From Anaerolineales bacterium (GTDB lineage: Bacteria > Chloroflexota > Anaerolineae > 4572-78 > J111): DNA of 11,307 nt. Within the stretch, counting starts at the first letter, position 1. Every line of letters starts with the position of its first letter. The translations under genes were made by a program, and so were the position numbers. The stretch lies in contig JAAUSP010000214.1 in the NCBI GenBank assembly GCA_012032575.1, forward strand, positions 1 through 11,307, written 5' to 3'. Below are positions 1 through 11,307 of this stretch, in pieces. The notes beneath the pieces were generated by a model. It had not been told where the DNA came from, searched no databases, and saw only the letters and a list, made by a program, of their open reading frames with translations.

Positions 1-318
1 GCCCATCATTTTGGCCGAGCGGATGACGGTTTTGGAGGGGACACAGCCGGTATTCAAACAGTCACCACCCAGCAGATGCCGCTCGATCACCGCCACTGTC
101 GCCCCCAATCCGGCCGCCGCCACCGCCGCCAGCAGCCCCGCCGAGCCACCGCCGATGACAACCAGGTTGTAAACCGGGGCTGGTTCGGGATTGCGCCAGT
201 CGGGGGGGTGAGTATTGGCAACCAGGATGTTGTTGTGTTCGTCCGTCGGTAAAATCTGCACGCCGTGGCCGGCGGGGGGGACGGGTCCATTTTTAGTTAA
301 TGCTGGTATTGAGGACAT
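1..318 (-). CDS. Mercuric-reductase-like FAD/NAD(P) disulfide oxidoreductase, N-terminal part
   Basis: This is the first 106 residues of a pyridine nucleotide-disulfide oxidoreductase; the rest lies beyond the window edge. Residues 49-61 hold the FAD-binding beta-alpha-beta start with GGGSAG (56-61). Residues 85-97 carry the redox-active disulfide in GGDCLNTGCVPSK (Cys87 and Cys92). Family members (mercuric reductase, dihydrolipoamide dehydrogenase) move electrons from NAD(P)H through FAD to this disulfide. There is no heavy-metal-associated domain in front of the FAD domain, so true mercury reduction is unproven. The chosen ATG (316-318) overlaps the end of the VTT gene by 26 bases and has AGGAG about 8 bases upstream. 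A later ATG at 290 is in another frame and does not lead into the FAD domain. The overlap implies translational coupling with the VTT gene, a pairing that recurs in bacteria. The protein's substrate is unknown. Confidence 0.9.
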   Translation of the reverse strand, partial: MSSIPALTKNGPVPPAGHGVQILPTDEHNNILVANTHPPDWRNPEPAPVYNLVVIGGGSAGLLAAVAAAGLGATVAVIERHLLGGDCLNTGCVPSKTVIRSAKMMG

Positions 319-988
319 GCGCCTGCTCCTGATCGTCTTGATTTTCTTGCTGTTCGCGCCGTTTGAAATAGCGGGAGATGGCAATACTGACCACCAGGAT
401 CACTACGCCAAAGCCCAGCACCCAGGGATTGGGCGGCGGCAAGCCCTGCGTTTCGAGCTGGGACAGGTCAACCGAGGCCCCAAAGGCTACAAAGGCAATG
501 GTGCCGGGAATCGAGCCGAGGGCGGTCGCCAGCAGAAACGACCGCCAGTTGATCCGCAGAAAGCCGCACAGATAATTGACCAGATCATACGGTAAAAAGA
601 TAAAGCGCATGATCATGACGGTTTCAAAGCTATTGCGGCGCAGGCGGCTGGTATACCGTTGCATCAAGTTGGTCGAGCCGCCCTGGTCTTCCTTGAGGAG
701 ACCCTGACCAAAATAGCGCCCGATGAGATAGGCGAGCATGGCCGAAATATTCGAGCCAATCACCGTGTAGATGACGGCCAGGGCAAAATTCAGGGCCGAA
801 CCCGCGCCAAACACTGCCCCGGCTGTAACGGTGAGCACAATGGCCGAAAAAAAGATGAGTGGGCGTAGCGTATAGATCAAAATGTAAAGGAGCGGGCCAT
901 AGGGTGTCTGGAGGAGGTCCACAATTTGCTGGACAGCTTTTAAGGGGGTCAGGTTGTGACTGGTGTAGTACCAGGCATACCCCCCCAC
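293..988 (-). CDS. TVP38/TMEM64 (VTT/DedA-like) family membrane protein
   Basis: The 231-residue frame has several hydrophobic segments and the VTT-domain core: a hydrophobic stretch ending in VTAGAVFGAG, then a long helix leading to YLIGRYFGQG, and downstream RFIFLPYDLVNYLCGF and GSIPGTIAFVAFG. Proteins of this family sit in the cytoplasmic membrane and are linked to lipid scrambling or small-molecule transport; the substrate here is unknown. The GTG at 988 is only the first usable start in this frame and would cut into the first membrane helix. The open frame continues upstream with NWQKLVALLFWAILVGGYAW but lacks a start codon. An ATG at 1065 with a good Shine-Dalgarno (AAAGG, 1073-1077) lies one frame away, so the true start is probably 1065 with a one-base indel near 1020-1032. 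The gene is followed, with overlap, by the flavoprotein gene. Confidence 0.85.
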   Translation of the reverse strand: MGGYAWYYTSHNLTPLKAVQQIVDLLQTPYGPLLYILIYTLRPLIFFSAIVLTVTAGAVFGAGSALNFALAVIYTVIGSNISAMLAYLIGRYFGQGLLKEDQGGSTNLMQRYTSRLRRNSFETVMIMRFIFLPYDLVNYLCGFLRINWRSFLLATALGSIPGTIAFVAFGASVDLSQLETQGLPPPNPWVLGFGVVILVVSIAISRYFKRREQQENQDDQEQAHVLNTSIN

Positions 989-1139
989 CAGAATGGCCCA
1001 AAATAGCAGAGCGACCAGCTTTTGCCAGTTTTGCTGGAGGAAATTTCCCGATGGTTTTGAGTCATAAAAGATCCTTTGTTTGGGGCTGAATTTCTTTCAG
1101 GGTAAAACAGGTTTCTTACAGAATCCTTAAATTTACCCA

Positions 1140-1148
1140 AGTATAGCA
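1140..1148 (-). promoter_or_regulatory. Possible extended -10 promoter for the VTT/flavoprotein pair
   Basis: On the minus strand the sequence reads TGC followed by TATACT, an extended -10 pattern, about 75 bases upstream of the likely VTT start at 1065. No convincing -35 hexamer is present at 17 bp, which is tolerated for extended -10 promoters. Inferred only from motif and position. Confidence 0.35.
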
Positions 1149-1248
1149 TCATTAAGTGCTTTTGGATGTAAGGAGACTTACAGACTTAAAGCTATGAGGG
1201 AAGATTTTATTGCCAAATGGTCTTCCCGCTGCAACTGTTTGAAGTACA

Positions 1249-1277
1249 GCCAGCAACCCGGTTAGCGGGTGGCTGGC
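1249..1277. other. Imperfect hairpin in the ClC leader
   Basis: GCCAGC (1249-1254) pairs with GCTGGC (1272-1277). After an A/G mismatch, ACCCG pairs with CGGGT (1266-1270), closing a GTTAG loop. There is no T-run, so it is not an intrinsic terminator. It ends six bases before the GAGG (1283-1286) that would serve a GTG start at 1294, so it could affect translation of the ClC gene or be a small palindromic repeat. Function unknown. Confidence 0.4.
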
Positions 1278-1293
1278 CTATCGAGGTAATTTG

Positions 1294-3444
1294 GTGATAC
1301 CCGCCAAAAAGAGTATTATGGGGGTGACATTCGTTGCAAAGGGTAAAAAGCGTACATTTTGCCATTCATTCTCTATTGTTAACACGATTTTAGGGGTAAT
1401 TTATCGCATCGGGTCAGTTAAGGTGAAGCAAAAAATTTCTTTGCCCGGACAGGTCAGCCGTTGGCTGGATCGCTGGCAGCCCTCCGAGTATGTAATTCTG
1501 GGTGGGGCGGCGCTGCTGGTTGGTCTGACAAGTGGAGCGGGGGTGTGGCTGTTCAAGCAGTTGATTGAGTTGGCTCACACCCTCGCCTTTGGCGAAATCG
1601 GCCCAGTTTTGACGGGGTGGGGTTACTGGACTGTTATGCTCATTCCGGTGCTGGGCGGTCTGGGGGTCGGTCTGATGCTGCACTTCTGGATCGGGCCGGA
1701 GCGCCATCACGGGGTAGCAGGGATTATGGAAGCTGTGGCCCTGGCCGGAGGCCGGCTGCGCTATCAGCGGATTCCGGCCAAAGCTACCGCCGCGGCTCTC
1801 TCCATTGGCTCCGGGGCGTCGGTGGGGCCGGAGGACCCATCGGTGCAGATTGGGGCGAACCTCGGCTCGATGTTTGGGCAACTGCTGCGTCTGTCTGACG
1901 ACCGGGTACGCGCTCTGGTTGCCGCCGGCGCGGCCGGCGGTATTGCCGCTGCCTTTAACGCGCCGATTGCCGGCCTCTTCTTTGCCCTGGAGATTATTTT
2001 GGGGGAAGTGGGCAGTAATGCGATGGGGGTGGTGATCCTGGCTGCGGTCATTTCGGCTGTCTTTACCCAGGCTGTATCCGGGCCTGAACCGGCTTTCCAT
2101 ATTCCAGCCTATGCCTTCCATTCGGCCTGGGAATTACCTTTGTATTTGGGGCTGGGTTTACTGTCCGGCCCGATTGCCGCCCTCTATATCCGCTTGATCT
2201 ATTTGGCCCAGGATATTTTTCACGGCTGGGCTGCGCCCCGCTGGCTCAAACCGGCCAGCGCCGGTCTGGCCGTGGGCCTGGTCGGTCTGTTTTTGCCCCA
2301 GGTGTTTGGCATAGGTTATGAAACTATTGAGCAAACACTGGGCAATGCTTCGCTGGCCGTGCCCCTGCTGCTGGTGCTGCTGGTGGCTAAACTCATCCTG
2401 ACGCCGGTTAGCATTGGTGGGGGTTTTCCCGGCGGTGTGTTTGCGCCCTCGCTGTTTCTGGGGGCCACTTTGGGCGCAGCTTATGGGCAGATGGTCGAAG
2501 GGTTGTTTCCCAATCTTCAGCTTGACCCGCCGGCCTTTGCCCTGGTCGGAATGGCAGCGGTGTTAGCCGGAACGGTCCACGCCCCTTTGACTGCGATTAT
2601 CCTCCTGTTTGAGATGACCAATGATTATCATATCATTCTGCCGCTGATGTTCGCGGTGGTAGTCAGCCTGCTTATCTCTCAACGCTTGCAGCCTGATTCC
2701 GTCTACGCTCTGGGCCTGGCTCGAAAAGGGATCCGGCTGCAACGCGGGCGCGATGTTGAAGTATTGGATGCCATCACGGTAGGCGAAGTGATGCAGACTG
2801 AAACGCCCTTTCTCCACGAGACCGACCCGGTCGAGACAGCCGCCGAGGTGTTGATGCAGACCCGCCATCACGGCTTACCCGTATTGGACGCAGCCGGAGC
2901 GTTGGCCGGTATCTTTACCGTGCAGGACCTGGAACAGGCCCAACAGATTGAAAGCAAGCAGCCTCTAACCGTGGGCCAGGTCTGTACCCGTGAGTTGCTG
3001 ACGGCTTACCCGGATGAAGCCATTGGCGTGGCGCTGCGGCGGATGGGCACACGCGATATTGGTCGCTTGCCGGTAATTGCCCGCAATAACCCCCGTCAGT
3101 TGTTGGGGCTGCTGCGCCGGGCCGATTTGGTCCGGGCTTACGACATCGCCTTGACTCGCCGGGCAGCGGTACGTCATCGGACGCAGCAGGTGCGGCTGGG
3201 GGCCTTCAGTGGGACCGAGGTTGAAGAATTTACGATAAAAGCCGGAGCGCCGTGCATCGGCCATTCTATCCACGAGGTTAACTGGCCGCGCAGTTGTGTG
3301 ATTGCCAGTATCCGGCGCGGACGCCAGCTCTTGATTCCGCACGGTGATACCGTGATCCAGGCAGGCGATGTGTTAATCACCGTCGTCGAAGGCCATGCCC
3401 ATGAGGAGCTACGGCGTCTCTGCCTGCCGGATAGTCGCAACTGA
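1294..3444 (+). CDS. ClC-family chloride transporter/channel with CBS pair and C-terminal RCK_C domain
   Basis: A voltage-gated chloride channel family protein of about 716 residues, expected in the cytoplasmic membrane. ClC core, roughly residues 65-480: GPEDP (178-182) is the G-x-E-x-P motif with the gating glutamate at 180; GVFAP (381-385) is the third anion-site motif; SVYAL (469-473) matches the conserved tyrosine region. The usual GSGIP serine motif reads HGVAGIMEA here, so the central serine is missing. The internal proton glutamate position reads ALEII, an isoleucine, so proton coupling is uncertain. Two CBS domains follow (about 493-550 and 558-615), then an RCK_C/TrkA_C ligand-binding domain (about 632-712), suggesting ligand control. 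Start: GAGG sits 7 bases before GTG 1294. ATG 1318 and GTG 1423 (22 residues before the first helix region) are alternatives, and the first 40 residues look unlike ClC. A strong terminator follows. Confidence 0.92.
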   Translation: MIPAKKSIMGVTFVAKGKKRTFCHSFSIVNTILGVIYRIGSVKVKQKISLPGQVSRWLDRWQPSEYVILGGAALLVGLTSGAGVWLFKQLIELAHTLAFGEIGPVLTGWGYWTVMLIPVLGGLGVGLMLHFWIGPERHHGVAGIMEAVALAGGRLRYQRIPAKATAAALSIGSGASVGPEDPSVQIGANLGSMFGQLLRLSDDRVRALVAAGAAGGIAAAFNAPIAGLFFALEIILGEVGSNAMGVVILAAVISAVFTQAVSGPEPAFHIPAYAFHSAWELPLYLGLGLLSGPIAALYIRLIYLAQDIFHGWAAPRWLKPASAGLAVGLVGLFLPQVFGIGYETIEQTLGNASLAVPLLLVLLVAKLILTPVSIGGGFPGGVFAPSLFLGATLGAAYGQMVEGLFPNLQLDPPAFALVGMAAVLAGTVHAPLTAIILLFEMTNDYHIILPLMFAVVVSLLISQRLQPDSVYALGLARKGIRLQRGRDVEVLDAITVGEVMQTETPFLHETDPVETAAEVLMQTRHHGLPVLDAAGALAGIFTVQDLEQAQQIESKQPLTVGQVCTRELLTAYPDEAIGVALRRMGTRDIGRLPVIARNNPRQLLGLLRRADLVRAYDIALTRRAAVRHRTQQVRLGAFSGTEVEEFTIKAGAPCIGHSIHEVNWPRSCVIASIRRGRQLLIPHGDTVIQAGDVLITVVEGHAHEELRRLCLPDSRN

Positions 3445-3457
3445 ATTAAACCATCCT

Positions 3458-3491
3458 AAAAAAGCCGGTTGTATCGCAACCGGCTTTTTTT
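3458..3491 (+). terminator. Intrinsic terminator after the ClC gene
   Basis: A perfect 8-bp stem, GCCGGTTG (3464-3471) with CAACCGGC (3477-3484), and a TATCG loop is followed by seven T residues (3485-3491) and preceded by an A-run, so it could also work in reverse. The heptamer array begins directly after the T-run. Confidence 0.92.
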
Positions 3492-3531
3492 CTTTAGGAA
3501 ACCTTTAGGTTTTCTTGAGGTCAACTTGAGG
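3492..3531 (+). promoter_or_regulatory. Operator array 1: four 11-bp-spaced heptamers (OmpR/PhoB-type site)
   Basis: The heptamers are CTTTAGG at 3492 and 3503 and CTTGAGG at 3514 and 3525, all in the same direction with exact 11-bp steps. The 4-bp spacers are AAAC, TTTT and TCAA. Direct repeats with 11-bp period are the known binding pattern of OmpR/PhoB-family winged-helix regulators, two monomers per pair. The array lies between the ClC terminator and the small membrane protein gene. Two further copies occur at 5514 and 7570. The cognate regulator is inferred to be the one encoded at 5673-6371. Confidence 0.8.
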
Positions 3532-3541
3532 TTAGCAGTTT

Positions 3542-3547
3542 TATTTT
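3542..3547 (+). promoter_or_regulatory. -10-like hexamer downstream of operator array 1
   Basis: TATTTT begins 10 bp after the last heptamer of array 1. The same 10-bp distance is found in the other two copies (TATTAT and CATTTT), and the following CGATTATCTT is also shared. In PhoB-type activation the direct-repeat box takes the place of the -35 element, which matches this layout. Transcription would start near 3554, about 50 bases before the GTG at 3604. Confidence 0.5.
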
Positions 3548-3603
3548 CGATTATCTTAAATAAAAAGCCAGGTCGCTTGCTGGGAGAAGTTGAGGTCAGT
3601 CTT

Positions 3604-3816
3604 GTGGAGCCAATGCCTGTTTTACTGATTGGGTTGATCGTCGTCATTGGTCTGTTAATTATGGCTGGTTTGTTTTCTAAACCACTGATGACCTTTATGC
3701 GCCATCATTTGCCCTACGATTCCACTGAAGGAGACACCTTTTTACTGTGGAGCGGGTTGGTTGTGACTGCTTTTATCCTGGGGTTGTTGGTAATGTACAT
3801 TATGCTGCGTTCCTGA
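3604..3816 (+). CDS. Small two-helix membrane protein of unknown function
   Basis: A 70-residue protein not recognised as a known family. It has one hydrophobic helix at the N-terminus (about residues 5-24), a short polar loop rich in His and acidic residues (FMRHHLPYDSTEGDTF, 31-46), and a second helix (about 47-67). The loop's two adjacent histidines and acidic residues are notable but prove nothing. GTG 3604 was chosen because GAGGT (3592-3596) lies 7 bases upstream; ATG 3613 is possible but its GGAG is only 3 bases away. The frame is open further upstream, into the terminator and operator, but those codons are not credible coding sequence. It is the first gene after operator array 1 and upstream of histidine kinase 1, so it may be a target or accessory of the two-component system. 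Confidence 0.65.
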   Translation: MEPMPVLLIGLIVVIGLLIMAGLFSKPLMTFMRHHLPYDSTEGDTFLLWSGLVVTAFILGLLVMYIMLRS

Positions 3817-3884
3817 GTTGCAAATGAGCGGCCCCAATTGACTGCTCTGGGTGCTGAGCGCGGTTTTAAGATTGATGAGTGAAA

Positions 3885-3913
3885 GTGACAATCAGGCTAA
3901 AATGAGTCATAAT
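3885..3913 (+). promoter_or_regulatory. Sigma70-like promoter upstream of histidine kinase 1 (repeat copy A)
   Basis: GTGACA (3885-3890) and CATAAT (3908-3913) are separated by 17 bp. The 31-base segment 3886-3916 matches 5590-5620, upstream of the response regulator gene, at 29 of 31 positions, including the spacer. The predicted transcript has a leader of about 110 bases before the kinase start at 4033. Confidence 0.6.
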
Positions 3914-4032
3914 TGACCTCCCGGCGGCATTAGCGAAGGGTATGGGTTAATCATTTCGACTTGATTACTGCCCCTGCTTCAGGTTCAAACCGCGCGGGCA
4001 AGTTTTAAGCGGGTAATCAAGGAGTGAGATGG

Positions 4033-5178
4033 ATGAAGCTAAACTTGCATGTCAAACTTGTGGTGAGCAACACCCTGCCCATCTTACTGCTGGCACCCTT
4101 CCTTAGCCTGTTTCTCTTTTATTCTCTGGAAGAACTTTTCTCCCAAACTTTGCTGCAACAACTCACCTTTCAGGCTCGGCTGCTGCTGGAACAGATTGAA
4201 CAGCAGCCGGAGTTAATCGAGGACCGTTCGGCGGCGCAGCGTTTTCTGGCCGAGGTCAGCCGTCTGACCGACGCCCGTGTGCTGCTATTATCGAAAGAAG
4301 GCAGGATCATAGCCTCAAACCGGGCCGAGGATATTGGTCGCGTGGGGCAGTCATACTTAGTTCCGTCCGTCCAGCAGGCCCTGCAAGGTCAAACGACGCA
4401 GGGATTTGGGCCTGGCTTCACCACGGAAGTGGCTTACGTAGTGCTGCCCTTACAACTCGACAGCAATGTTACCGGCGCATTGCGTGTTTCATACGAGGTG
4501 GCCTATATGCGTTCGGCGCTGAGCGGTTTACAATGGGTTATCTTGCAAGGTGTGATCTTGACGGTTGTGTTGGGCCTGGGCTTGAGCCTGGGGTTGGCCA
4601 CAACCATCGCCCGGCCCCTGCGGGAATTGACGGGACGGGTCCAGGACATCGCCCAGGGGAATTATCAGGCACGGGTGATCGTGCGCAGGCAAGATGAGAT
4701 TGGCATTCTGGCTCAAAGCTTCAACCAGATGGCGGCCCGGCTCGAAGAGGCCGAGCAGACCCGTGCCCGCCAACTGGCGGCAATTGCCCACGAATTGACC
4801 CGCCCGTTGACCGGAATCCGGGCAGCCGTGGAAACACTTCATGACGATGCGGATGCCGGTATCGAAATCCGTGAGATTTTGTTTACCGGCATCGAAGAGG
4901 AAGTAGCCCGGCTCGAACGGCTGGTCGGAACGCTCCAAAACCGGCATCATCAGGTGTTGCGACGGATTCAAGTAAGCCCGACTGAAATCTCGCTGGAGCG
5001 GGTCATTCGGGCCAGCGCCGCCAATTTCGAGCCGGTCGCCGCCCGTCAAGGGGTGGCTCTCTCGGTCGAGTTGCCCTCCGGTTTGGCCCGGATTCAGGCG
5101 GATGAGGATCGCTTAATTCAAGTTCTGACCAATCTGCTGGATAATGCGCTTAAGTTTACCCCGCGCGGGGCCAGGTGA
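4033..5178 (+). CDS. HAMP sensor histidine kinase 1, main part (frameshifted before the ATP-binding G boxes)
   Basis: Membrane sensor kinase, 381 residues in this frame. A helix at about 8-31 and another at about 166-190 flank an extracytoplasmic sensor region. HAMP covers about 190-242. The dimerisation/phosphoacceptor box is AHELTRPLTGI with His253; the order TR differs from the usual HELRTPL. The N box is NLLDNALKFTP (Asn371). The frame then stops at 5178, while the remaining ATPase domain (DTGVGI, F box, GMGLGL) continues in another frame from 5175. One extra G in the G4 run at 5167-5170 would join them as PRGGQVIVQV, the expected family sequence. The start ATG 4033 has GGAG 8 bases upstream. 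A sigma70-like promoter lies at 3885-3913. Either the gene is intact in the organism and the read is wrong, or the kinase is split. The cognate partner is probably the regulator at 5673. Confidence 0.88.
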   Translation: MKLNLHVKLVVSNTLPILLLAPFLSLFLFYSLEELFSQTLLQQLTFQARLLLEQIEQQPELIEDRSAAQRFLAEVSRLTDARVLLLSKEGRIIASNRAEDIGRVGQSYLVPSVQQALQGQTTQGFGPGFTTEVAYVVLPLQLDSNVTGALRVSYEVAYMRSALSGLQWVILQGVILTVVLGLGLSLGLATTIARPLRELTGRVQDIAQGNYQARVIVRRQDEIGILAQSFNQMAARLEEAEQTRARQLAAIAHELTRPLTGIRAAVETLHDDADAGIEIREILFTGIEEEVARLERLVGTLQNRHHQVLRRIQVSPTEISLERVIRASAANFEPVAARQGVALSVELPSGLARIQADEDRLIQVLTNLLDNALKFTPRGAR

Positions 5179-5459
5179 TCGTTCAGGTTAGTGAGCAGAC
5201 CGACGCGGTGTGGATTCAGGTAACAGATACGGGGGTGGGCATTGCCCGCGAGGAATTGCCTTTTGTTTTCCAACAGTTCTACCGGGGGGCTGATTCTCGT
5301 CCGCCCGAAAAACGGGGCATGGGCCTGGGCTTAGCCATCTGTCGAGAAATCATCACTGCGCACGGTGGGCAAATCTGGGTTGAGAATAACCCAGACCGAG
5401 GCGCTCGATTCACTTTCACCCTGCCCAAAGCTATAGAGATGGAAACCCCTCTGGCTTAA
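5175..5459 (+). CDS. Histidine kinase 1, C-terminal ATP-binding part
   Basis: This frame carries the rest of the HATPase_c domain of kinase 1: G1 box DTGVGI, F box FVFQQFYR, G2 box GMGLGLAI, and the closing strand ARFTFTLPK. It has no sensor or phosphoacceptor of its own. Its GTG overlaps the TGA of the upstream frame (GTGA, 5175-5178), so reinitiation is formally possible. The N box and G boxes belong to one fold, and joining the frames needs a single base in a G-run, so this is most simply the tail of one kinase of about 475 residues. It is followed by terminator 2. Confidence 0.8.
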   Translation: MIVQVSEQTDAVWIQVTDTGVGIAREELPFVFQQFYRGADSRPPEKRGMGLGLAICREIITAHGGQIWVENNPDRGARFTFTLPKAIEMETPLA

Positions 5460-5483
5460 TCAAAATGATTAGAATTGACTTAA

Positions 5484-5513
5484 GGGCTTGTTAGCTGTAA
5501 CAAGTCCTTTTTT
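5484..5513 (+). terminator. Intrinsic terminator after histidine kinase 1
   Basis: GGGCTTGTTA (5484-5493) pairs with TAACAAGTCC (5498-5507) over 10 bp including one G-T pair, with a GCTG loop, followed by six T residues (5508-5513). Operator array 2 begins at the next base, the same junction as in the other two copies. Confidence 0.9.
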
Positions 5514-5553
5514 CTTTAGGAAAGCTTTAGGTTTTCTTTAGCTCAACTTGAGG
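5514..5553 (+). promoter_or_regulatory. Operator array 2, upstream of the response regulator gene
   Basis: The heptamers are CTTTAGG at 5514 and 5525, CTTTAGC at 5536 and CTTGAGG at 5547, each 11 bp apart with spacers AAAG, TTTT and TCAA. It is nearly identical to array 3 (7570-7609), differing in one spacer base. It sits about 120 bases before the regulator gene, which suggests autoregulation by that OmpR/PhoB-type protein. Binding is inferred from repeat geometry, not shown. Confidence 0.8.
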
Positions 5554-5563
5554 TAAGGACGGT

Positions 5564-5569
5564 TATTAT
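5564..5569 (+). promoter_or_regulatory. -10-like hexamer downstream of operator array 2
   Basis: TATTAT, one mismatch from the TATAAT consensus, starts exactly 10 bp after the last heptamer. This is the best -10 of the three copies. It would give a start near 5576, upstream of the second promoter at 5589-5617, so the regulator gene probably has tandem promoters. Confidence 0.55.
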
Positions 5570-5588
5570 CGGTTATCTTCTGAGTAAA

Positions 5589-5617
5589 ATGACAATCCGG
5601 CTAAAACGAGTCATAAT
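5589..5617 (+). promoter_or_regulatory. Sigma70-like promoter upstream of the response regulator (repeat copy B)
   Basis: ATGACA (5589-5594) and CATAAT (5612-5617) lie 17 bp apart. The segment 5590-5620 repeats 3886-3916 with two substitutions. It likely provides basal expression of the regulator, with array 2 and its -10 as the activated promoter. Confidence 0.6.
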
Positions 5618-5672
5618 TGAGACGGGGTTTTGCGGTTGAATTGATTGAGCTGATAAGGATATATTTTCCCAA

Positions 5673-6371
5673 ATGGAAAAAATACTTGTCGTAGACGACG
5701 ATGCGCTGCTCCGGCGCAGCCTCAAGTACCGGCTTGAACGTGAGGGATATACGGCCATCACGGTCGAGAATGGCGAAGAAGCGGTGAGCATGGCTCGCAG
5801 TGATCCGCCCGACCTGATCTTGCTGGACATTGGTCTGCCTGACCGGGACGGTCTGGAGATTGCCCGGACCTTGCAGCGTGAATTGAGTGTCCCCCTTATT
5901 TTTCTGACCGGCCGCAGCCAGGAAAACGATATTGTCATCGGTTTGGAACTGGGAGCCGAGGATTATGTGACCAAACCGTTTGGGATGCGGGAATTGCTGG
6001 CTCGTATTCGAGTCGTTTTGCGCCGGATGACCCGTGAATCAATTCAGCCAGCCGATGACCCCCTGGTTGTCGGCGATGTTTGGCTTGATCCTGGGGGGCG
6101 TGAGGTACGGGTCCGGGGGGAGCCGGTAGACCTGCCGCCCAAAGAGTTTGAACTTTTGCGGCTGCTGTTGGCCAACGCCGGCACAGTCCTGACCACCAAC
6201 TATCTCCTCGATGCCGTGTGGGGCGAAGAATTTGCCGGGGCTGTACAGGTGCTCTACGTCCACATTGGCTGGCTGCGCGAACGAATTGAGCCAAATCCGC
6301 GCCGCCCCCAATATATTCAAACGGCACGGGGTGTGGGCTACAAGTTTGTTGTTCCAGAGTCTGAGCCATAA
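5673..6371 (+). CDS. OmpR/PhoB-family response regulator
   Basis: A 232-residue two-domain regulator. Receiver domain (about 1-118): acidic cluster Asp8-Asp10, phosphoacceptor Asp52 in LILLDIGLPDRDG, Thr79, and Lys101 in the YVTKPFG motif, so all phosphorylation residues are present. Winged-helix DNA-binding domain (about 130-226): LPPKEFELLRLLLANAG, the recognition-helix region VQVLYVHIGWLRERIE, and the wing ending TARGVGYKF, typical of Trans_reg_C. Such proteins bind direct repeats with 11-bp spacing as head-to-tail dimers, which is the geometry of the three heptamer arrays around it. The start ATG 5673 gives the standard N-terminus; only a weak, distant AAGGAT precedes it. Kinase 2 follows after 50 bases, probably in the same transcript, and kinase 1 lies just upstream. 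Which kinase is its partner cannot be told from sequence. Confidence 0.95.
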   Translation: MEKILVVDDDALLRRSLKYRLEREGYTAITVENGEEAVSMARSDPPDLILLDIGLPDRDGLEIARTLQRELSVPLIFLTGRSQENDIVIGLELGAEDYVTKPFGMRELLARIRVVLRRMTRESIQPADDPLVVGDVWLDPGGREVRVRGEPVDLPPKEFELLRLLLANAGTVLTTNYLLDAVWGEEFAGAVQVLYVHIGWLRERIEPNPRRPQYIQTARGVGYKFVVPESEP

Positions 6372-6421
6372 GCCACGAGTTTATTGCTGAATAATCGTTA
6401 CATCGGAGAAGTGAGACCTCA

Positions 6422-7477
6422 ATGGACAGGACGGCAAGGTACTTCAGCGGGCAACTCAGATTGCTTTTGATAATGGCCAGTTTTGTAGGGGCTATCTTGC
6501 TGGGGCTGCTTGATTACCTGACCGGGCCTGAAATCTTTGTCCCCACTTTTTATTTGATCCCGGTTTCCCTGGCAGCCTGGTTTGGAGGAAGATGGGCCGG
6601 GGGTTGGGTCGCTGTCGTATGCGCTCTGTCCGGCTTAAGTATTGATCTGATCTTGCGGTCACCTTATTCACATCCAGTCATCCCTTACTGGAACATGCTG
6701 GCCAGATTAAGCCTTTTTTTAATCGTCGCCTATCTGCTGGCAACATTGCAGGCGGCCCGACAAATCCGCGAGGAGTTGCAGAATTTCATTGTGCATGATC
6801 TCGGCACACCCTTAAGCGGGATTATTCTGGCACTGCATGCTTTACAGGTGGATGCTCACGAGATGAACCCAACGCAACAAATGCTAGTCAAGAGTGCAAT
6901 AGCCTCGAGCCAATGGATGTCCGGCCTCGTCAATTCTTTGCTCAATTTATCCCGGCTCGAAAGCGGCCGCATGCCGCTGCACACCAGTGACATTGAAGTG
7001 AAGGATCTAATTGAGGCGTCAGTAGAGCAAGTAGCCTTGCGAATGGAGCAGCATCAGCTTACCGTGGTTACTGAATTAGCAACAGATAAAAAATGTATAT
7101 ATGCCGATCGTGAACTGACGGTGCGGATTTTGGTTAATTTACTGGGTAATGCCATCAAGTTCAGTCCCCGTGGCTCGGTAGTTACCGTCCGCGTTGCTCT
7201 CAGTAGGGCGAACAGACTGGCTGTTAGCGTTACCGATCAGGGGCCAGGTATTCCCAAGCGGTGGGCTGGGAAGGTTTTTGATAAATTTACCCAAATTGAA
7301 GCGCGTCAGTCCGGTGTGGCCGTTGGCAGCGGCCTGGGTCTGACCTTTTGTAAGTTGGCCGTAGAAGCTCAAGGCGGTCACATTTGGCTGGAGAGCAATC
7401 CAGGCCAGGGAACCTCTGTAACTTTCACCTTGCCCATCCGTATGCGTCCCTCACCCGAACCCATCAAGGAAATCTAA
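6422..7477 (+). CDS. Membrane histidine kinase 2
   Basis: A 351-residue sensor kinase. The N-terminal third is hydrophobic, with about four helices between residues 12 and 108 and very short loops, so it is likely to sense something in or at the membrane rather than through a periplasmic domain. There is no HAMP or PAS domain; the last helix runs straight into the phosphoacceptor helix. H box: NFIVHDLGTPLSGI with His125; glycine replaces the usual arginine or lysine after HDL. N box NLLGNAIKFSP (Asn243), G1 box DQGPGI (272-277), G2 box GSGLGL (302-307), ending in TFTLP. All ATPase motifs are present in one frame. It lies 50 bases after the response regulator, the likely partner. No strong Shine-Dalgarno is seen before ATG 6422. 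Terminator 3 follows. Confidence 0.93.
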   Translation: MDRTARYFSGQLRLLLIMASFVGAILLGLLDYLTGPEIFVPTFYLIPVSLAAWFGGRWAGGWVAVVCALSGLSIDLILRSPYSHPVIPYWNMLARLSLFLIVAYLLATLQAARQIREELQNFIVHDLGTPLSGIILALHALQVDAHEMNPTQQMLVKSAIASSQWMSGLVNSLLNLSRLESGRMPLHTSDIEVKDLIEASVEQVALRMEQHQLTVVTELATDKKCIYADRELTVRILVNLLGNAIKFSPRGSVVTVRVALSRANRLAVSVTDQGPGIPKRWAGKVFDKFTQIEARQSGVAVGSGLGLTFCKLAVEAQGGHIWLESNPGQGTSVTFTLPIRMRPSPEPIKEI

Positions 7478-7538
7478 ACAACACCGATTCAGAAAATATA
7501 ACAAATCACACAGACCCTCACAAGATTTTCATAATGTC

Positions 7539-7569
7539 AAGGCTTGTTGCGCTCCAACGAGCCTTTTTT
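7539..7569 (+). terminator. Intrinsic terminator after histidine kinase 2
   Basis: GGCTTGTTG (7541-7549) pairs with CAACGAGCC (7555-7563), one G-T pair, loop CGCTC, extended by two A-T pairs and followed by six T residues (7564-7569). Operator array 3 starts at the next base. The stem sequence differs from the other two terminators although the position is the same. Confidence 0.9.
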
Positions 7570-7609
7570 CTTTAGGAAAGCTTTAGGTTTCCTTTAGCTC
7601 AACTTGAGG
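7570..7609 (+). promoter_or_regulatory. Operator array 3, upstream of the DUF4386 gene
   Basis: The heptamers are CTTTAGG at 7570 and 7581, CTTTAGC at 7592 and CTTGAGG at 7603, again 11 bp apart, with spacers AAAG, TTTC and TCAA. The -10 position 10 bp downstream reads CATTTT (7620-7625), the weakest of the three, then CGATTA as in copy 1. The next gene downstream starts at 7818, beyond a MITE-like element. Confidence 0.78.
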
Positions 7610-7641
7610 TAAGCCCGATCATTTTCGATTAACCTTTATTG

Positions 7642-7756
7642 GTGGCAAACAGGTACCTTACTCAATATGTAGGGGCGAACCCTTGCGGTCGCCCCGTGGG
7701 GCAGGCGCAAGGCCGTGCCCCTACCCCGAATTATTGAGAAGATACGTGGCAAACAG
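7642..7756. repeat. 11-bp direct repeats flanking a palindromic element
   Basis: GTGGCAAACAG occurs at 7642-7652 and again at 7746-7756, immediately outside the inverted-repeat element 7653-7745. This looks like a target-site duplication, though 11 bp is longer than usual for MITEs. Confidence 0.6.
7653..7745. mobile_element. 93-bp MITE-like double-hairpin element
   Basis: The terminal inverted repeats are GTACCTTACTCAATA (7653-7667) and TATTGAGAAGATAC (7732-7745), matching except for one substitution and one gap. Inside, GTAGGGGC (7669-7676) pairs with GCCCCTAC (7717-7724). The interior can also fold as two hairpins: GGGGCGA with TCGCCCC (7672-7695) and GGGGCA with TGCCCC (7698-7721). It has no coding capacity. 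Terminal repeats plus flanking direct repeats suggest a non-autonomous transposable element, and similar GC-rich double-hairpin elements are common in intergenic DNA of some bacteria. It lies between operator array 3 and the DUF4386 start, within the predicted transcript leader. Confidence 0.65.
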
Positions 7757-7817
7757 TAAATTAAGGCAAGTTGCTTATCAATGAAACGCCCGAAAGTCGT
7801 TCAAGAAAGGAGTAAAA

Positions 7818-8276
7818 GTGAGCACAAACAAAAAAACCGCCAGGGTTGCCGGGATACTGTATCTGACCATCATCGTCGCCGGTATTTTTGCCGAATTTTT
7901 TGTTCGCCAGAGTCTTATTGTGCCGGGGGATGCTACAACAACAGCCAATAACATTACGGCTTCTGAGGGATTATTCCGTATAGGGATTGCCAGTGATCTT
8001 ATCATGATTATGAGTGATGTGGCCCTGGCTTTGATCTTTTACGTATTGCTCAAACCGGTCAGTGATTCATTATCGTTGCTTGCGGCGTTTTTCAGGGTAG
8101 CACAAGCTGTTATTTTGGGGATCAACTTGCTTAACCTCTTCTTTGTATTACAGCTTTTAAGTGGTGCTGACACCCTGACCGTATTTAGCTCAGATCAATT
8201 GCATGCACTGGTGTTGCTGTTTCTCAATGGGCACAGTATTGGCTATGCTATTGGCCTGGTGCTTTTTTGGTCTTAG
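7818..8276 (+). CDS. DUF4386-family membrane protein, N-terminal part (frameshifted)
   Basis: The first 152 residues belong to a DUF4386-type protein of unknown function. It begins with a short basic stretch then RVAGILYLTIIVAGIFAEFF, the characteristic first helix, followed by an extracytoplasmic segment and more helices. The frame ends abnormally at IGLVLFWS; removing one T from the T6 run at 8263-8268 gives IGLVLFGLSLLVLGYLVFKS, the family sequence, continuing to 8538. The restored protein has about 239 residues, normal for the family. GTG 7818 has AAAGGAG (7806-7812) 5 bases upstream. It is the first gene after operator array 3 and probably heads a transcript with the next membrane protein and the MDR gene. 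Confidence 0.85.
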   Translation: MSTNKKTARVAGILYLTIIVAGIFAEFFVRQSLIVPGDATTTANNITASEGLFRIGIASDLIMIMSDVALALIFYVLLKPVSDSLSLLAAFFRVAQAVILGINLLNLFFVLQLLSGADTLTVFSSDQLHALVLLFLNGHSIGYAIGLVLFWS

Positions 8277-8538
8277 CCTCTTAGTGCTTGGTTATCTGGT
8301 TTTTAAGTCGGGTTATTTCCCCAGAATCTTGGGGGTTCTATTGATCGTTGCTGCATTGGGCTATTTAAGCGATAGTTTTGCACGCTTCCTTTTGCCCACC
8401 TACGACACCTACGAAGAAATATTTACCCTGGTTGTTTTCCTGCCGGCGTTTATCGGGGAATTGTCAATGTGCTTGTGGCTCTTGGTGAAGGGTGTAACCG
8501 TCAAGCAGACGCATTTGCGCCCCAGCCACGCTTCTTAG
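8203..8538 (+). CDS. DUF4386-family membrane protein, C-terminal part (second frame of the same gene)
   Basis: From about 8269 this frame encodes the missing C-terminal helices: GLSLLVLGYLVFKSGYFPRI, LGVLLIVAALGYLSDSF, then a final helix ending in LWLLVKG. The residues before 8269 (MHWCCCF and following) are a shadow of the upstream frame, so the true gene is 7818-8538 with a one-base insertion in the T6 run. The motif FKSGYFPRILGVLL is a typical DUF4386 signature. Confidence 0.75.
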   Translation: MHWCCCFSMGTVLAMLLAWCFFGLSLLVLGYLVFKSGYFPRILGVLLIVAALGYLSDSFARFLLPTYDTYEEIFTLVVFLPAFIGELSMCLWLLVKGVTVKQTHLRPSHAS

Positions 8539-8611
8539 CCAGAGATGGAAGACAATCGGCGCAGCAAAGTTATTTATGGCCGAACATAATACTCAAAATA
8601 AGGGGAGCTAA

Positions 8612-9270
8612 ATGACAAGTAGTTTACAGAAAATGGGGGGTATTGCCGCATTATATGAGGCAGCAGCCTACATAGTGGGTATTGTATTTTTATCTTAGTC
8701 GTAGACTTTACTGCTGTTGCCAATCCTACCCAAAAAGTGATTTTACTCTCAGACAACCAGGCCAGTATATACATAATGAACCTGGTGATCTACGTGATAT
8801 TTGGCGTCTTTTTGGTTATCCTGGCGCTGGCGCTCCACGAGCGATTGAAGACCGGCTCACCAGCAATAATGCAGACGGCAACCGCCCTCGGATTGATCTG
8901 GGCCGGCCTGGTGATTGCCGGCGGCATGATCTTTAATATCGGCACAGGGGTAGTAGTTAATCTCTACAACACAGACCCGGCTCAGGCCGCGACGGTTTGG
9001 ATGGCGATTGAGGCTGTGTTTAATGGCATAGGCGGCGGGAATGAGTTTGTGGGCGGGGCATGGCTTCTATTGGTAAGTTGGGCAGCTTTACACGCCAGAG
9101 AGCTGCTCAGACCGCTCAACTACCTTGGCCTGGTGGTCGGTGTGGCCGGTATCCTCTCGGCTGTTCCGGCGTTTGGCGAGTTGGGAGGACTGATTTTCGG
9201 ATTGGGTCAGATTGTTTGGTTTGTATGGCTGGGAGTCGTCATGATGCGCCATAGCCCAAGGGCAGCGTAA
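8612..9270 (+). CDS. Polytopic membrane protein of unknown function, frameshifted near its N-terminus
   Basis: The frame starting at ATG 8612 (AGGGGAG at 8601-8607) reads MTSSLQKMGGIAALYEAAAY and stops at 8698. Adding one T to the T5 run at 8687-8691 restores an open frame through VVDFTAVANPTQKV to the end at 9270, about 220 residues. Without correction the first start in the long frame is GTG 8737, which loses the first helix. The protein has about five to six hydrophobic segments, including NLVIYVIFGVFLVILALAL and LGLIWAGLVIAGGMIF, with small-residue-rich helices and few charges. The N-terminus resembles DUF4386-like proteins, and I do not recognise a function. It lies 73 bases after the DUF4386 gene and 65 bases before the MDR gene in the same direction. 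Confidence 0.78.
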
Positions 9271-9335
9271 CTACCAGGCGCAATGATTGCATATCCATAC
9301 TATTTTAGAAATTGCTCAAATAAGGAGGAAGAGTG

Positions 9336-9800
9336 ATGAAGGCTGTTATATACACAGAATATGGACCACCGGACGTTCTTCAGCTTAAAGAGGTAGAAAA
9401 ACCGGTTCCCAAGGACGATGAAGTTCTGATAAAAGTACACACGGCAACCGTAACGGCTACGGACTGCATCTTTCGAAGGGGTAATAAATTTAGTGCAAGG
9501 TCTTTTACGGGTCTCATCAGACCCAAAAATGCCGTGCCAGGGGATGCGCTGGCCGGAGAAATTGAGGCAGCCGGCAAAGCTGTAACATCGTTTAAGCCAG
9601 GAGACCAGGTTTTTGGCTCCACCGATACCGGTTTTGGGGCTTATGCTGAGTATAAATGTCTATCTGAGGGAGCGCCGCTGGCTATAAAACCGGCCAATAT
9701 TACCTATGGTGAAGCTGCCGCCATCTGCGATGGCGCTTTAACAGCGTTACCTTTCCTTAGAGATAAGGCAAATATACAGAACGGTCAAAAAATCCCGTAA
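9336..9800 (+). pseudogene. MDR-superfamily NAD(P)-dependent oxidoreductase, truncated by an insertion sequence
   Basis: The first 154 residues are the GroES-like catalytic domain of a medium-chain dehydrogenase/reductase (quinone oxidoreductase or alcohol dehydrogenase type): MKAVIYTEYGPPDVLQLKEV, VTATDCIFRRG, PGDALAGEIEAAGKAVTSF, KPGDQVFG, GAYAEY, and TALPFLRDKANIQNGQKI. The next element should be a strand leading to the GxGxxG of the nucleotide-binding domain. Instead the frame ends at a stop at 9798-9800, and transposase-associated sequence follows. Normal length is about 320-340 residues, so the cofactor domain is lost and the product is almost certainly inactive. ATG 9336 has AAGGAGG (9322-9328) at 7 bases. 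It is probably the third gene of the unit headed by the DUF4386 gene. Confidence 0.88.
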
Positions 9801-9878
9801 CCGCAAAAGGAACGTACAAGCAAGAATGAGAACAAATGTAGTAGAATAAGGGGCACACCAAGTTGGAGTAAGAGGAAG

Positions 9879-11192
9879 ATGAAAACGAGTAAGCATTATG
9901 AAGAGTTGCCCCGTTATTATTTTCGACCGGAATTGGACCGGTGTATTGACTGTGGAACCCCCTTGAAACGTAGCCATACGGCCTGGCATAAAGTGATAGC
10001 GAGCCTGGAAGGGATGGCCGAAGTGTACAATCAAGCCTATCGGTGTCCAGAGGGGGCCTTGTGTCCTCATCCGCAGCGGGTCTACCGGTCGGCCTATGCC
10101 GATGGGCTGAGTTTGCCCTACTATACCTATGGGCTGGATGTCATTGTTTACATTGGTCAACAACGCCTCCGCCAGCATCAGACCATGCCGGCGATCCATC
10201 GAGCCTTGAGCGAAGGCGAAAAAGCCGTTCAAATCAGTGAGCGGACGGTTGAAGCGTTATTTGATGTCTACTTGACCTTGTGCGCTTGTAGTCAGGGTTT
10301 CCGGCTGGCTCGGTATCGACCTCAAATCGAAGCCAATGGGGGGATGATCTTGGCGATTGATGGGGCCAAACCGGAAAAAGGGCAGCCCGGTCTGTATATT
10401 TTTCGGGATGCCTTGACCGGGTGCCGGCTCCACTCGGCCTTGTTGTACAGTGCCGATAGCGATAGTCTGGCCATTGAACTGCGCGAAGTGGCAGCTTTAG
10501 GCTTGCCCATCCAAGCGGTCATCAGTGATGATGAACCGGCGACCCAGGCGGCAGTGAAAGAAGTGTTACCTGAGTGTCCACACGGCTTATGTCACTTGCA
10601 CTTTTTGCAGGCGGTGCAGGAGCCGGTCCGACAAGCCGACAGTCAGTTAGCCTCGGCCTTGAAAAAACCTCTGCGCGCGATCAGCCGCTTGGAAAAAACC
10701 CTCGCGACGGACCCCAAGCCGACGGTGGAGTTGTCGGCTACCCAGAAAACGGCGTTGGGTCGGTATCTGGATGCCGGTCGAGCCATCTTGTTGACCAAAG
10801 GGCAGGCCCCGTTTCGGTTAGCCGGAGTACCAATCTTTGAAGCCTTGGACCAACTCACCGCTTCGTTGCAGCGGGCCCAGGTCCAGCATGCGTCCCCGCT
10901 GTTGGCCCACTTATTAACCTTAACTCAGCCCGCTGACCAACATCACCCGATCTATGAACAGGTGCGAGGTCAACAGGAATGGTTTTTGGGCTTGGCCGAC
11001 TTGCTCAATGTCCCAGAAGGGCCAACCTTTGGCTGGTCAACCCAGACCGGGGCCGAAGTCGCCCAGGCCGTGGACGATTATTTGGAGCAACTTGAAGGCT
11101 TGCGGGATGAACTCCCTGGGGCTGCCGCTTTCTTTGACCATCTCCAACGCCGTTGTCACCACTGGGCCCCCCGGCTTGTTTTGGACTTATGA
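9879..11192 (+). CDS. DDE transposase with zinc-ribbon-like N-terminus and C-x2-H motif
   Basis: A 437-residue frame that holds most of a transposase. The N-terminus has a Cys cluster (C22, C25, C56, C62, H64) likely to bind zinc. A helix-turn-helix-like stretch ISERTVEALFDVYLTL lies near 119-134. First catalytic aspartate: Asp161 in ILAIDGAKPEKG. Second: ISDDEP, Asp217 or Asp218. Then LCHLHFLQAV carries the C-x2-H motif (Cys238, His241) seen between the second and third catalytic residues in the MULE/IS256 group. The third catalytic residue, expected in RTNNDLE, lies after this frame's stop, in another frame. Removing one C from the C6 run at 11167-11172 joins them as WAPGLFWTYE. A purine-rich AGAGGAAG directly precedes the ATG. 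I cannot assign an IS family name with certainty. Confidence 0.85.
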   Translation: MKTSKHYEELPRYYFRPELDRCIDCGTPLKRSHTAWHKVIASLEGMAEVYNQAYRCPEGALCPHPQRVYRSAYADGLSLPYYTYGLDVIVYIGQQRLRQHQTMPAIHRALSEGEKAVQISERTVEALFDVYLTLCACSQGFRLARYRPQIEANGGMILAIDGAKPEKGQPGLYIFRDALTGCRLHSALLYSADSDSLAIELREVAALGLPIQAVISDDEPATQAAVKEVLPECPHGLCHLHFLQAVQEPVRQADSQLASALKKPLRAISRLEKTLATDPKPTVELSATQKTALGRYLDAGRAILLTKGQAPFRLAGVPIFEALDQLTASLQRAQVQHASPLLAHLLTLTQPADQHHPIYEQVRGQQEWFLGLADLLNVPEGPTFGWSTQTGAEVAQAVDDYLEQLEGLRDELPGAAAFFDHLQRRCHHWAPRLVLDL

Positions 11193-11307
11193 AATCCCCG
11201 AGTTACCCCGCACCAATAATGACTTGGAAGCAGATATCGGTGATATTAAAGAACAATACCGTCGGATTACGGGACGGCGAACCTTAAGGATTACCTGATG
11301 CGCTATG
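11173..11307 (+). CDS. Transposase C-terminal part with the catalytic glutamate (second frame, runs off the window)
   Basis: This segment reads GLFWTYEIPELPRTNNDLEADIGDIKEQYRRITGRR in the shifted frame. NNDLE supplies the expected third acidic residue of the DDE triad, and RRITGR is a common transposase tail motif. The frame then stops at 11296-11298. If one A is missing from the AA at 11286-11287, the sequence continues as TLKDYLMRY to the window edge, a more natural continuation. Both indels lie in short homopolymers, and the two shifts cancel each other. Confidence 0.65.

Follow-up and report, generated by a model that had tools for sequence, protein, structure and literature searches.

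Putative activator operators of an OmpR/PhoB-type regulator in Anaerolineae: arrays of four heptamers between a terminator-like hairpin and a −10-like hexamer

The closest described counterparts of the element considered here are the PmrA box, the pho box and the sites of CutR, an OmpR-type regulator. The PmrA (BasR) box is composed of head-to-tail half-sites with a CTTAAG core and a 5-bp gap, amounting to an 11-bp period (PMC3973317). The pho box is built of units joining a 7-bp direct repeat to a 4-bp A/T-rich region and is bound by a dimer upstream of the −10 element; in E. coli it lies near the −10 and replaces the −35 (PMC4971064). The Streptomyces CutRS/CssRS are two-component systems of the secretion stress response, and CutR acts on htrA3 and htrB through the site TAWATAAA, repressing from sites at −17 to −28 and activating from about −62 and −69 (PMC12802291). 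Here we analyse 11,307 nt of DNA from an Anaerolineales bacterium (GCA_012032575.1, contig JAAUSP010000214.1, positions 1-11,307 of the forward strand; hereafter the window), which carries an OmpR/PhoB-type response regulator gene at 5673 and three arrays of 40 bp, each made of four direct CTTKAGS heptamers with an exact 11-bp period. On sequence grounds we consider it likely that these arrays are oriented activator operators of the 5673 regulator, each forming one unit with an upstream terminator and a downstream sigma70-like −10 box.

With the PmrA box (PMC3973317) the arrays share the OmpR/PhoB-type regulator, the 11-bp period and the CTTNAG core, but they have four rather than two half-sites and T or G at position 4. 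An earlier note on this DNA had not recognized the motif as the site of any described regulator; the match in period and core brings it close to one. The pho box (PMC4971064) has 7-bp repeats with 4-bp spacers as here, but its heptamer is a different one and the array in the window stops 20 nt before the −10. A likeness to CssRS/CutRS would lie in the link of a two-component system to htrA genes, seen here for arrays of relatives and not in the window; the CutR site (PMC12802291) differs from the CTTNAGG arrays. In the open-licence literature, of which we had a partial view, we found no described operator or regulon of an OmpR-type regulator in Chloroflexota and no paper with both CTTTAGG and 'response regulator'. 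The putative regulon would be new; the element belongs to an ordinary known class, with an unusually clear geometry and in a little-studied phylum.

The features on which the argument rests are the following:

3458..3490, forward strand: terminator-like hairpin and T-tract before array 1, at the end of the ClC channel gene (−20.8 kcal/mol)
3492..3531, forward strand: array 1, CTTTAGG-N4-CTTTAGG-N4-CTTGAGG-N4-CTTGAGG (exact match)
3552..3557, forward strand: −10-like TATCTT, 20 nt past array 1
5482..5509, forward strand: terminator-like hairpin before array 2 (RNA fold −15.3 kcal/mol)
5514..5553, forward strand: array 2, four heptamers (exact match)
5574..5579, forward strand: −10-like TATCTT, 20 nt past array 2
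5673..6371, forward strand: OmpR/PhoB-type response regulator with REC and Trans_reg_C domains
7539..7565, forward strand: terminator-like hairpin before array 3 (RNA fold −14.8 kcal/mol)
7570..7609, forward strand: array 3, four heptamers (exact match)
7630..7635, forward strand: −10-like TAACCT, 20 nt past array 3

Heptamers of the CTTTAGG/CTTTAGC/CTTGAGG type, claimed by the earlier note to occur four times with 11-bp spacing at three sites, were all found there (12/12, forward strand). A scan of the window for the four-heptamer pattern with up to three mismatches returned exactly arrays 1-3 and one overlapping out-of-register match, against a chance expectation of 0.00 (mean of 200 dinucleotide shuffles). 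The twelve heptamers are in register, as had been stated, but the arrays are mutually identical in 36 of 40 columns and the likeness extends into both flanks, so that they represent one motif duplicated and not twelve independent observations. Independent support for the motif comes from relatives rather than from the copies in the window.

The T-tract of a terminator-like hairpin directly precedes each window array (3/3), a feature absent from the earlier note; 0, 1 and 1 of 200 shuffles were at least as stable as hairpins 1, 2 and 3, respectively, by RNA folding. On the other side of the arrays, the main new result of the analysis, likewise missing from that note, is the fixed distance to a −10-like hexamer, counted on arrays selected by their heptamers alone. 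In the orthologue group of 11 arrays (three from the window and eight from genomes G311, G294 and G139), TAnnnT starts exactly 20 nt past the last heptamer in 10, any other offset occurring at most twice. Of 23 further Anaerolineae arrays, 11 have the hexamer starting at +20 and five have it at +21 (16/23), other offsets again being found no more than twice each; duplicates (L160, L162, L200, L203, L210 and L217) were counted once or excluded, and the extra tandem copies of L159 as well as L190 were left out. By comparison, among the 118 look-alike stretches listed from many phyla (see below), TAnnnT stands at +20 in one and at +21 in another, the latter from Thermanaerothrix daxensis. Because the −10-like TAnnnT lies at a fixed +20 (or +21), the arrays appear to be oriented promoter elements. 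They are probably activator operators whose end near −33 adjoins the −35 region, and it is from this position that we infer activation as opposed to repression.

The earlier assignment of the gene at 5673 to the OmpR/PhoB family holds, its product having receiver and winged-helix domains over the cut-offs (Response_reg 103.7 bits, Trans_reg_C 87.5 bits). Compared with NCBIfam equivalogs, it stayed below cut-off for YycF/WalR (210.6 against 340 bits), PhoB (195.8 against 296.2), PmrA/BasR (150.7 against 330) and CpxR (148.6 against 341), and no model was reached at cut-off among the best 25 of 106 models. The tandem direct half-sites at a 10-11 bp period expected for OmpR/PhoB-type regulators are present as four heptamers at 11 bp, both in the window and in relatives; this layout, similar to those of the PmrA box and the pho box, agrees with the operator class proposed previously and makes the arrays a candidate operator of the 5673 regulator. 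At least 287 database proteins resemble the regulator at E ≤ 1e-80 among 8000 scored (the best 120 of the 287 being listed, without genomic context).

Relatives were reached via an array match in T. daxensis (class Anaerolineae), and the regulator was searched for in 396 genomes of that class, with seven candidates scored per listed genome. Matches at E ≤ 1e-70 were obtained in 37 of the 396 genomes, and proteins 68-71% identical to the regulator in three, namely G311 (three copies), G294 and G139, giving five orthologue loci. In all five, a homologue of kinase 1 (51-58% identical), which in the window is encoded upstream of the regulator, directly follows the regulator and is itself followed by a hairpin (−13.5 to −25.4 kcal/mol) and then an array, located just beyond the kinase stop and 2.1-2.2 kb past the regulator start. 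In L155, L157 and L158 the T-tract touches the array; in L156 the two are 8 nt apart, with the T-tract first, and in L159 they overlap. The L155 array reads CTTTAGG-N4-CTTTAGG-N4-CTTGAGC-N4-GTTGAGG, that of L156 is the most diverged of the orthologue loci, and that of L158, whose heptamers 2 and 3 are spaced by 10 bp, is detected only if a 1-nt spacing change is allowed. A further array in L157 lies upstream of the regulator; no hairpin precedes it, and it faces away toward a DksA/TraR-type gene. In L159 (5849-5915) a 33-bp array unit is repeated in tandem after the terminator, which suggests array growth via unit duplication.

Scanning the loci for four CTTNAGG heptamers (period fixed, 18 or more of the 24 positions matching) revealed arrays at 4/5 orthologue loci (5/5 with the 1-nt change of L158) and at 8/35 homologue loci with regulators of 49-56% identity, mostly at +2.2 to +2.8 kb. 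None was present at 20 control loci of other OmpR-type regulators (G001, G306, G209) or in the loci sequences read backwards. Fisher's test gives p 0.0027 for 13/40 versus 0/20 loci (the 13 include L158, and its spacing change was not applied to the controls) and p 0.04 for the homologue loci taken separately (8/35 versus 0/20); one control, L224, carries the sister-group helix (YVHIRWLRE) and was kept in the count. The arrays thus seem to track this regulator subfamily, and the adjacent regulator, named as their binder in the earlier note, is the likely one. The same note had proposed to scan related genomes for arrays clustering upstream of orthologues: clustering near them was indeed observed, but positions vary among the homologue loci, and at the orthologue loci the regulator gene is not the one at which the arrays point.

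A class-wide scan for the array gave 23 matches (22 sites, one of them matched on both strands) in 19/396 genomes, compared to none in the backward control. Eight of these 19 genomes are among the 37 with a regulator match, where 1.8 would be expected (p 1e-4). Searches of the family (14 genomes) and order (20 genomes) of G311 yielded no orthologue genomes beyond G311, G294 and G139; the G306 family (12 genomes) had no regulator above 54% identity, a phylum sample queried with P0013 contained orthologues in 0/400, and viral contigs showed no regulator relative, with 15 array-pattern stretches matched. A loose scan for four CTTNAGS heptamers over all genome contigs retrieved at least 118 stretches from many phyla. 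Of the 118 listed, 93 have only one or two kinds of spacer and are minisatellite-like; ten of the listed tiles hold a regulator match, in seven of these it lies within 59-151 bp of the array, and in five of the seven the array is oriented opposite to the regulator. With few of the listed stretches near regulators and their orientations mixed, the loose motif has no diagnostic value by itself beyond the clade. Arrays of this kind in Betaproteobacteria and Actinobacteria (L006, L024, L032, L039, L047, L089, L114) have the same period and a similar core and lie 59-151 bp upstream of the start of an OmpR-type regulator, but those regulators are 33-35% identical and a +20/+21 hexamer does not characterize the look-alike set (2/118 listed). 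L104, the other Chloroflexota stretch among those listed, has no +20 hexamer. In G306, the array and promoter at L199 are nearly identical to array 1 of the window and precede a glycosyltransferase gene.

Sequence comparison shows the arrays, the hairpins, the distance to the −10, the genes downstream and the association with the regulator subfamily. A mechanism proposed on this basis has to presume that the regulator is phosphorylated, that it binds the arrays, that it activates and does not repress, and what signal it answers to. The regulator would be phosphorylated, most likely by kinase 1, and two of its dimers would sit head-to-tail on the four heptamers, from about −72 to −33. The last heptamer would then lie against a weak −35 region, and RNA polymerase would be recruited to the −10 box 20 nt downstream. 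Array 1 would drive the gene of a small membrane protein, array 2 the regulator together with kinase 2 (autoregulation) and array 3 a DUF4386 gene. The most likely partner of the regulator is kinase 1 rather than kinase 2, since a homologue of kinase 1 directly follows the regulator in 5/5 orthologue loci. If the mechanism is true, it provides a concrete operator, a fixed promoter geometry and a small target list pointing to envelope or secretion stress.

A number of observations weigh against this mechanism. The +20 offset had already been spotted on the first arrays when the counting began, and related species contribute near-identical promoters to the 23 further arrays (L196/L209; L211-L214), which are not independent; with the L190 array, which stands outside the 23 and lacks the +20 hexamer, the count becomes 16/24. 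No array was found at threshold in 27/35 homologue loci, although in five of them (L164, L165, L171, L173, L198) the contig stops before about +2.3 kb and L181 has masked bases; in L168 a small protein follows the kinase, but there is no array at threshold. The sequence covered was slightly shorter for the controls (119 kb over 20 loci versus 238 kb over 35). Homologue arrays are also scattered: the one in L170 lies directly after the regulator, and those in L166 (at a distance of 4.4 kb) and L190 are on the other strand. A terminator-like hairpin precedes the array in only one of seven homologue loci checked (L185). None of the arrays at the five orthologue loci is placed to drive the regulator gene; the array behind the kinase points at the next gene instead. 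In the window the frame of kinase 1 is broken and no htrA was seen within the 11.3 kb, while HtrA beside the regulator in 5/35 homologue versus 0/20 control loci is not significant (p 0.15). Arrays in genomes lacking the regulator, which had been named beforehand as telling against the proposal, were found in part: loose arrays are common in other phyla, and G306 has a near-perfect array (23/24, −10 at +20), yet no orthologue was detected there, its best regulators being 47-48% identical (150 of 287 candidates scored).

This last case bears directly on an explanation in which operator and promoter stay the same but the main binder is another OmpR-type regulator of the cell, such as one whose recognition helix is related, the 5673 gene being a mere neighbour. 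CTTAAGG arrays also accompany the regulators of 49-56% identity, and both T. daxensis and G306 encode many response regulators. Nevertheless, arrays at 5/5 orthologue loci and at 0/20 loci of other regulators, together with the change of heptamer letter 4 with the recognition helix of the adjacent regulator (see below), make such a substitution improbable. Repression from the arrays, where binding beside the −35 would block RNA polymerase and phosphorylation would relieve or strengthen the block, might be expected if the last heptamer adjoins the −35 region, as the 20-nt spacing implies, and CutR is reported to repress from its sites at −17 to −28. The arrays, however, lie upstream of the −10/start region rather than over it and are not accompanied by a good TTGACA at −35, as in activator-dependent promoters; the CutR sites at about −62 and −69 are activating ones (PMC12802291), and we regard repression as unlikely.

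Three near-identical copies within 4.1 kb, the tandem 33-bp unit of L159 and the 93 minisatellite-like stretches among the 118 listed would also be compatible with the terminator-array unit being a gene-end or mobile repeat, copied without a regulatory role. Such a repeat would not be expected to keep a −10 box at exactly +20 despite diverged spacers, to be missing from 20/20 control loci or to stand before genes where a terminator-like hairpin is missing (L161, L199 and six sister-group loci), and we give this explanation very little weight. Hardly credible is an action of the arrays in RNA, as an attenuator formed with the hairpin and T-tract directly beside them. Folding of the arrays is not clearly above that of shuffles (z −1.2, −0.7 and −1.4), no Rfam match was obtained at the gathering score, and the −10 lies downstream, leaving the array outside the new transcript; an RNA mechanism was accordingly judged unlikely.

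Returning to activation by the 5673 regulator, its specificity may be considered from the recognition-helix stretch, VQVLYVHIGWLRE (residues 191-203), which is similar in orthologues; many homologues have QVVYVHIRWLRE, and in other regulators the stretch is mostly different. At loci where the helix residue aligned to 199 is Gly, 32/32 heptamers have T or G as letter 4; where it is Arg, 20/28 have A, and the sole Asn locus (L156) is mixed. These counts cover 16 arrays beside regulators, three of them the near-duplicates of the window, and represent a correlation, not a test; L161, L163, L199 and other arrays away from regulators, L190, L204 and the second L174 array were excluded. The covariation between heptamer and helix offers a direct handle on specificity. 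A bolder proposal, speculative and in our estimation rather doubtful as a whole, joins two ideas. The difference between Gly199 (window) and Arg (sister group) would decide letter 4 (T/G versus A), producing two insulated regulons in one lineage, and the terminator-operator-promoter unit would be a portable cassette whose copying to a gene end recruits the next gene into the regulon. Such a cassette would explain the three near-identical units in 4 kb, the L159 tandem and the differing targets among relatives.

The remaining genes and elements of the window referred to below are:

1423-3444: ClC channel gene with CBS and TrkA_C domains, preceding array 1
3613..3816, forward strand: small membrane protein, 67 aa from ATG, with a GTG 9 nt upstream and two hydrophobic stretches by eye
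3886..3916, forward strand: 31-bp element, copy 1, with TGACA-N17-CATAAT inside, upstream of kinase 1
4024..5459, forward strand: kinase 1 (HAMP, HisKA, HATPase_c), two overlapping frames, 4024-5178 and 5175-5459
5590..5620, forward strand: 31-bp element, copy 2, between array 2 and the regulator
6422..7477, forward strand: kinase 2 (DUF4118, HisKA, HATPase_c)
7818..8538, forward strand: DUF4386 gene, two frames, 7818-8276 and 8203-8538, proposed target of array 3

The gene order is ClC channel, array 1, 67-aa membrane protein, kinase 1, array 2 and OmpR/PhoB-type regulator in the 5′ part, followed by kinase 2, array 3, two DUF4386 genes, an alcohol dehydrogenase (ADH) fragment and a transposase-like gene in the 3′ part.

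Of the proposed targets, the small membrane protein is the one that recurs. It starts 82 nt past array 1 within the open reading frame 3469-3816 and has ten database relatives at 62-97% identity but no Pfam match. Its relatives follow arrays in L155, L158 and L163, and in L155, L158, L163, L166, L172, L174 and L182 a small protein in which two hydrophobic stretches are seen by eye begins 59-84 nt past the array, in keeping with the place given to it in the regulon by the earlier note. HtrA-type proteases (Trypsin_2 and PDZ, by Pfam) come after arrays in L166, L172, L182, L185 and L201 (T. daxensis), and after the L190 array by tblastn; in L166 the unit of array, small protein and HtrA runs opposite to the regulator, and in T. 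daxensis one array precedes the htrA gene, with a weak −10 at +21. Other array-linked genes code for c-di-AMP receptor-like proteins (L158 by Pfam; L157 and L159 by tblastn), D-Ala ligase-like proteins (L157 by Pfam; L163, 67% identical to that of L157), DksA/TraR-type proteins (L157, with the divergent array, and L159) and, downstream of the L196 array, a secreted repeat protein and a DUF5666 protein. Based on this array-linked gene set, and not on the count of HtrA beside the regulator, the system is probably a response to envelope or secretion stress. The DUF4386 unit, also assigned to the regulon, does follow array 3, but this is seen in the window only, and DUF4386 was not met among the annotated genes downstream of arrays in relatives. 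The ClC channel with CBS and TrkA_C domains before array 1 and the c-di-AMP receptor-like genes in L157, L158 and L159 share a possible turgor or ion theme.

Autoregulation, likewise claimed previously, agrees with array 2 preceding the regulator and with L204 (regulator about 50% identical), where an array lies 58 nt upstream of the regulator frame; it does not extend to the orthologue loci, in which the upstream array of L157 faces away. Since the arrays of those loci follow the kinase and point at the next gene, autoregulation in the window may be a by-product of a changed gene order. Moreover, the TGACA-N17-CATAAT promoter-like element between array 2 and the regulator is a second possible promoter. 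It belongs to the 31-bp element TGACAATCMGGCTAAAAYGAGTCATAATTGA, which is duplicated upstream of kinase 1 and the regulator with 29/31 bases identical between the copies; the copy at 3886-3916 probably serves kinase 1 as a promoter that does not depend on the arrays.

The reading frame is broken in kinase 1 and in both DUF4386 genes, each time close to a single-base run (5160-5178, 8203-8276 and 8650-8737); these breaks may be errors of sequencing or assembly, or genuine decay. A GC-rich palindromic stretch at 7670-7735, past array 3 and ahead of the DUF4386 gene, has the look of a dispersed repeat by eye. Finally, in the region 9333-11192 the ADH-like gene is shortened at 9800, and the gene after it weakly matches MULE/IS256-type transposases, the MULE match being below the Pfam cut-off; the shortened gene and its transposase-like neighbour suggest an insertion.

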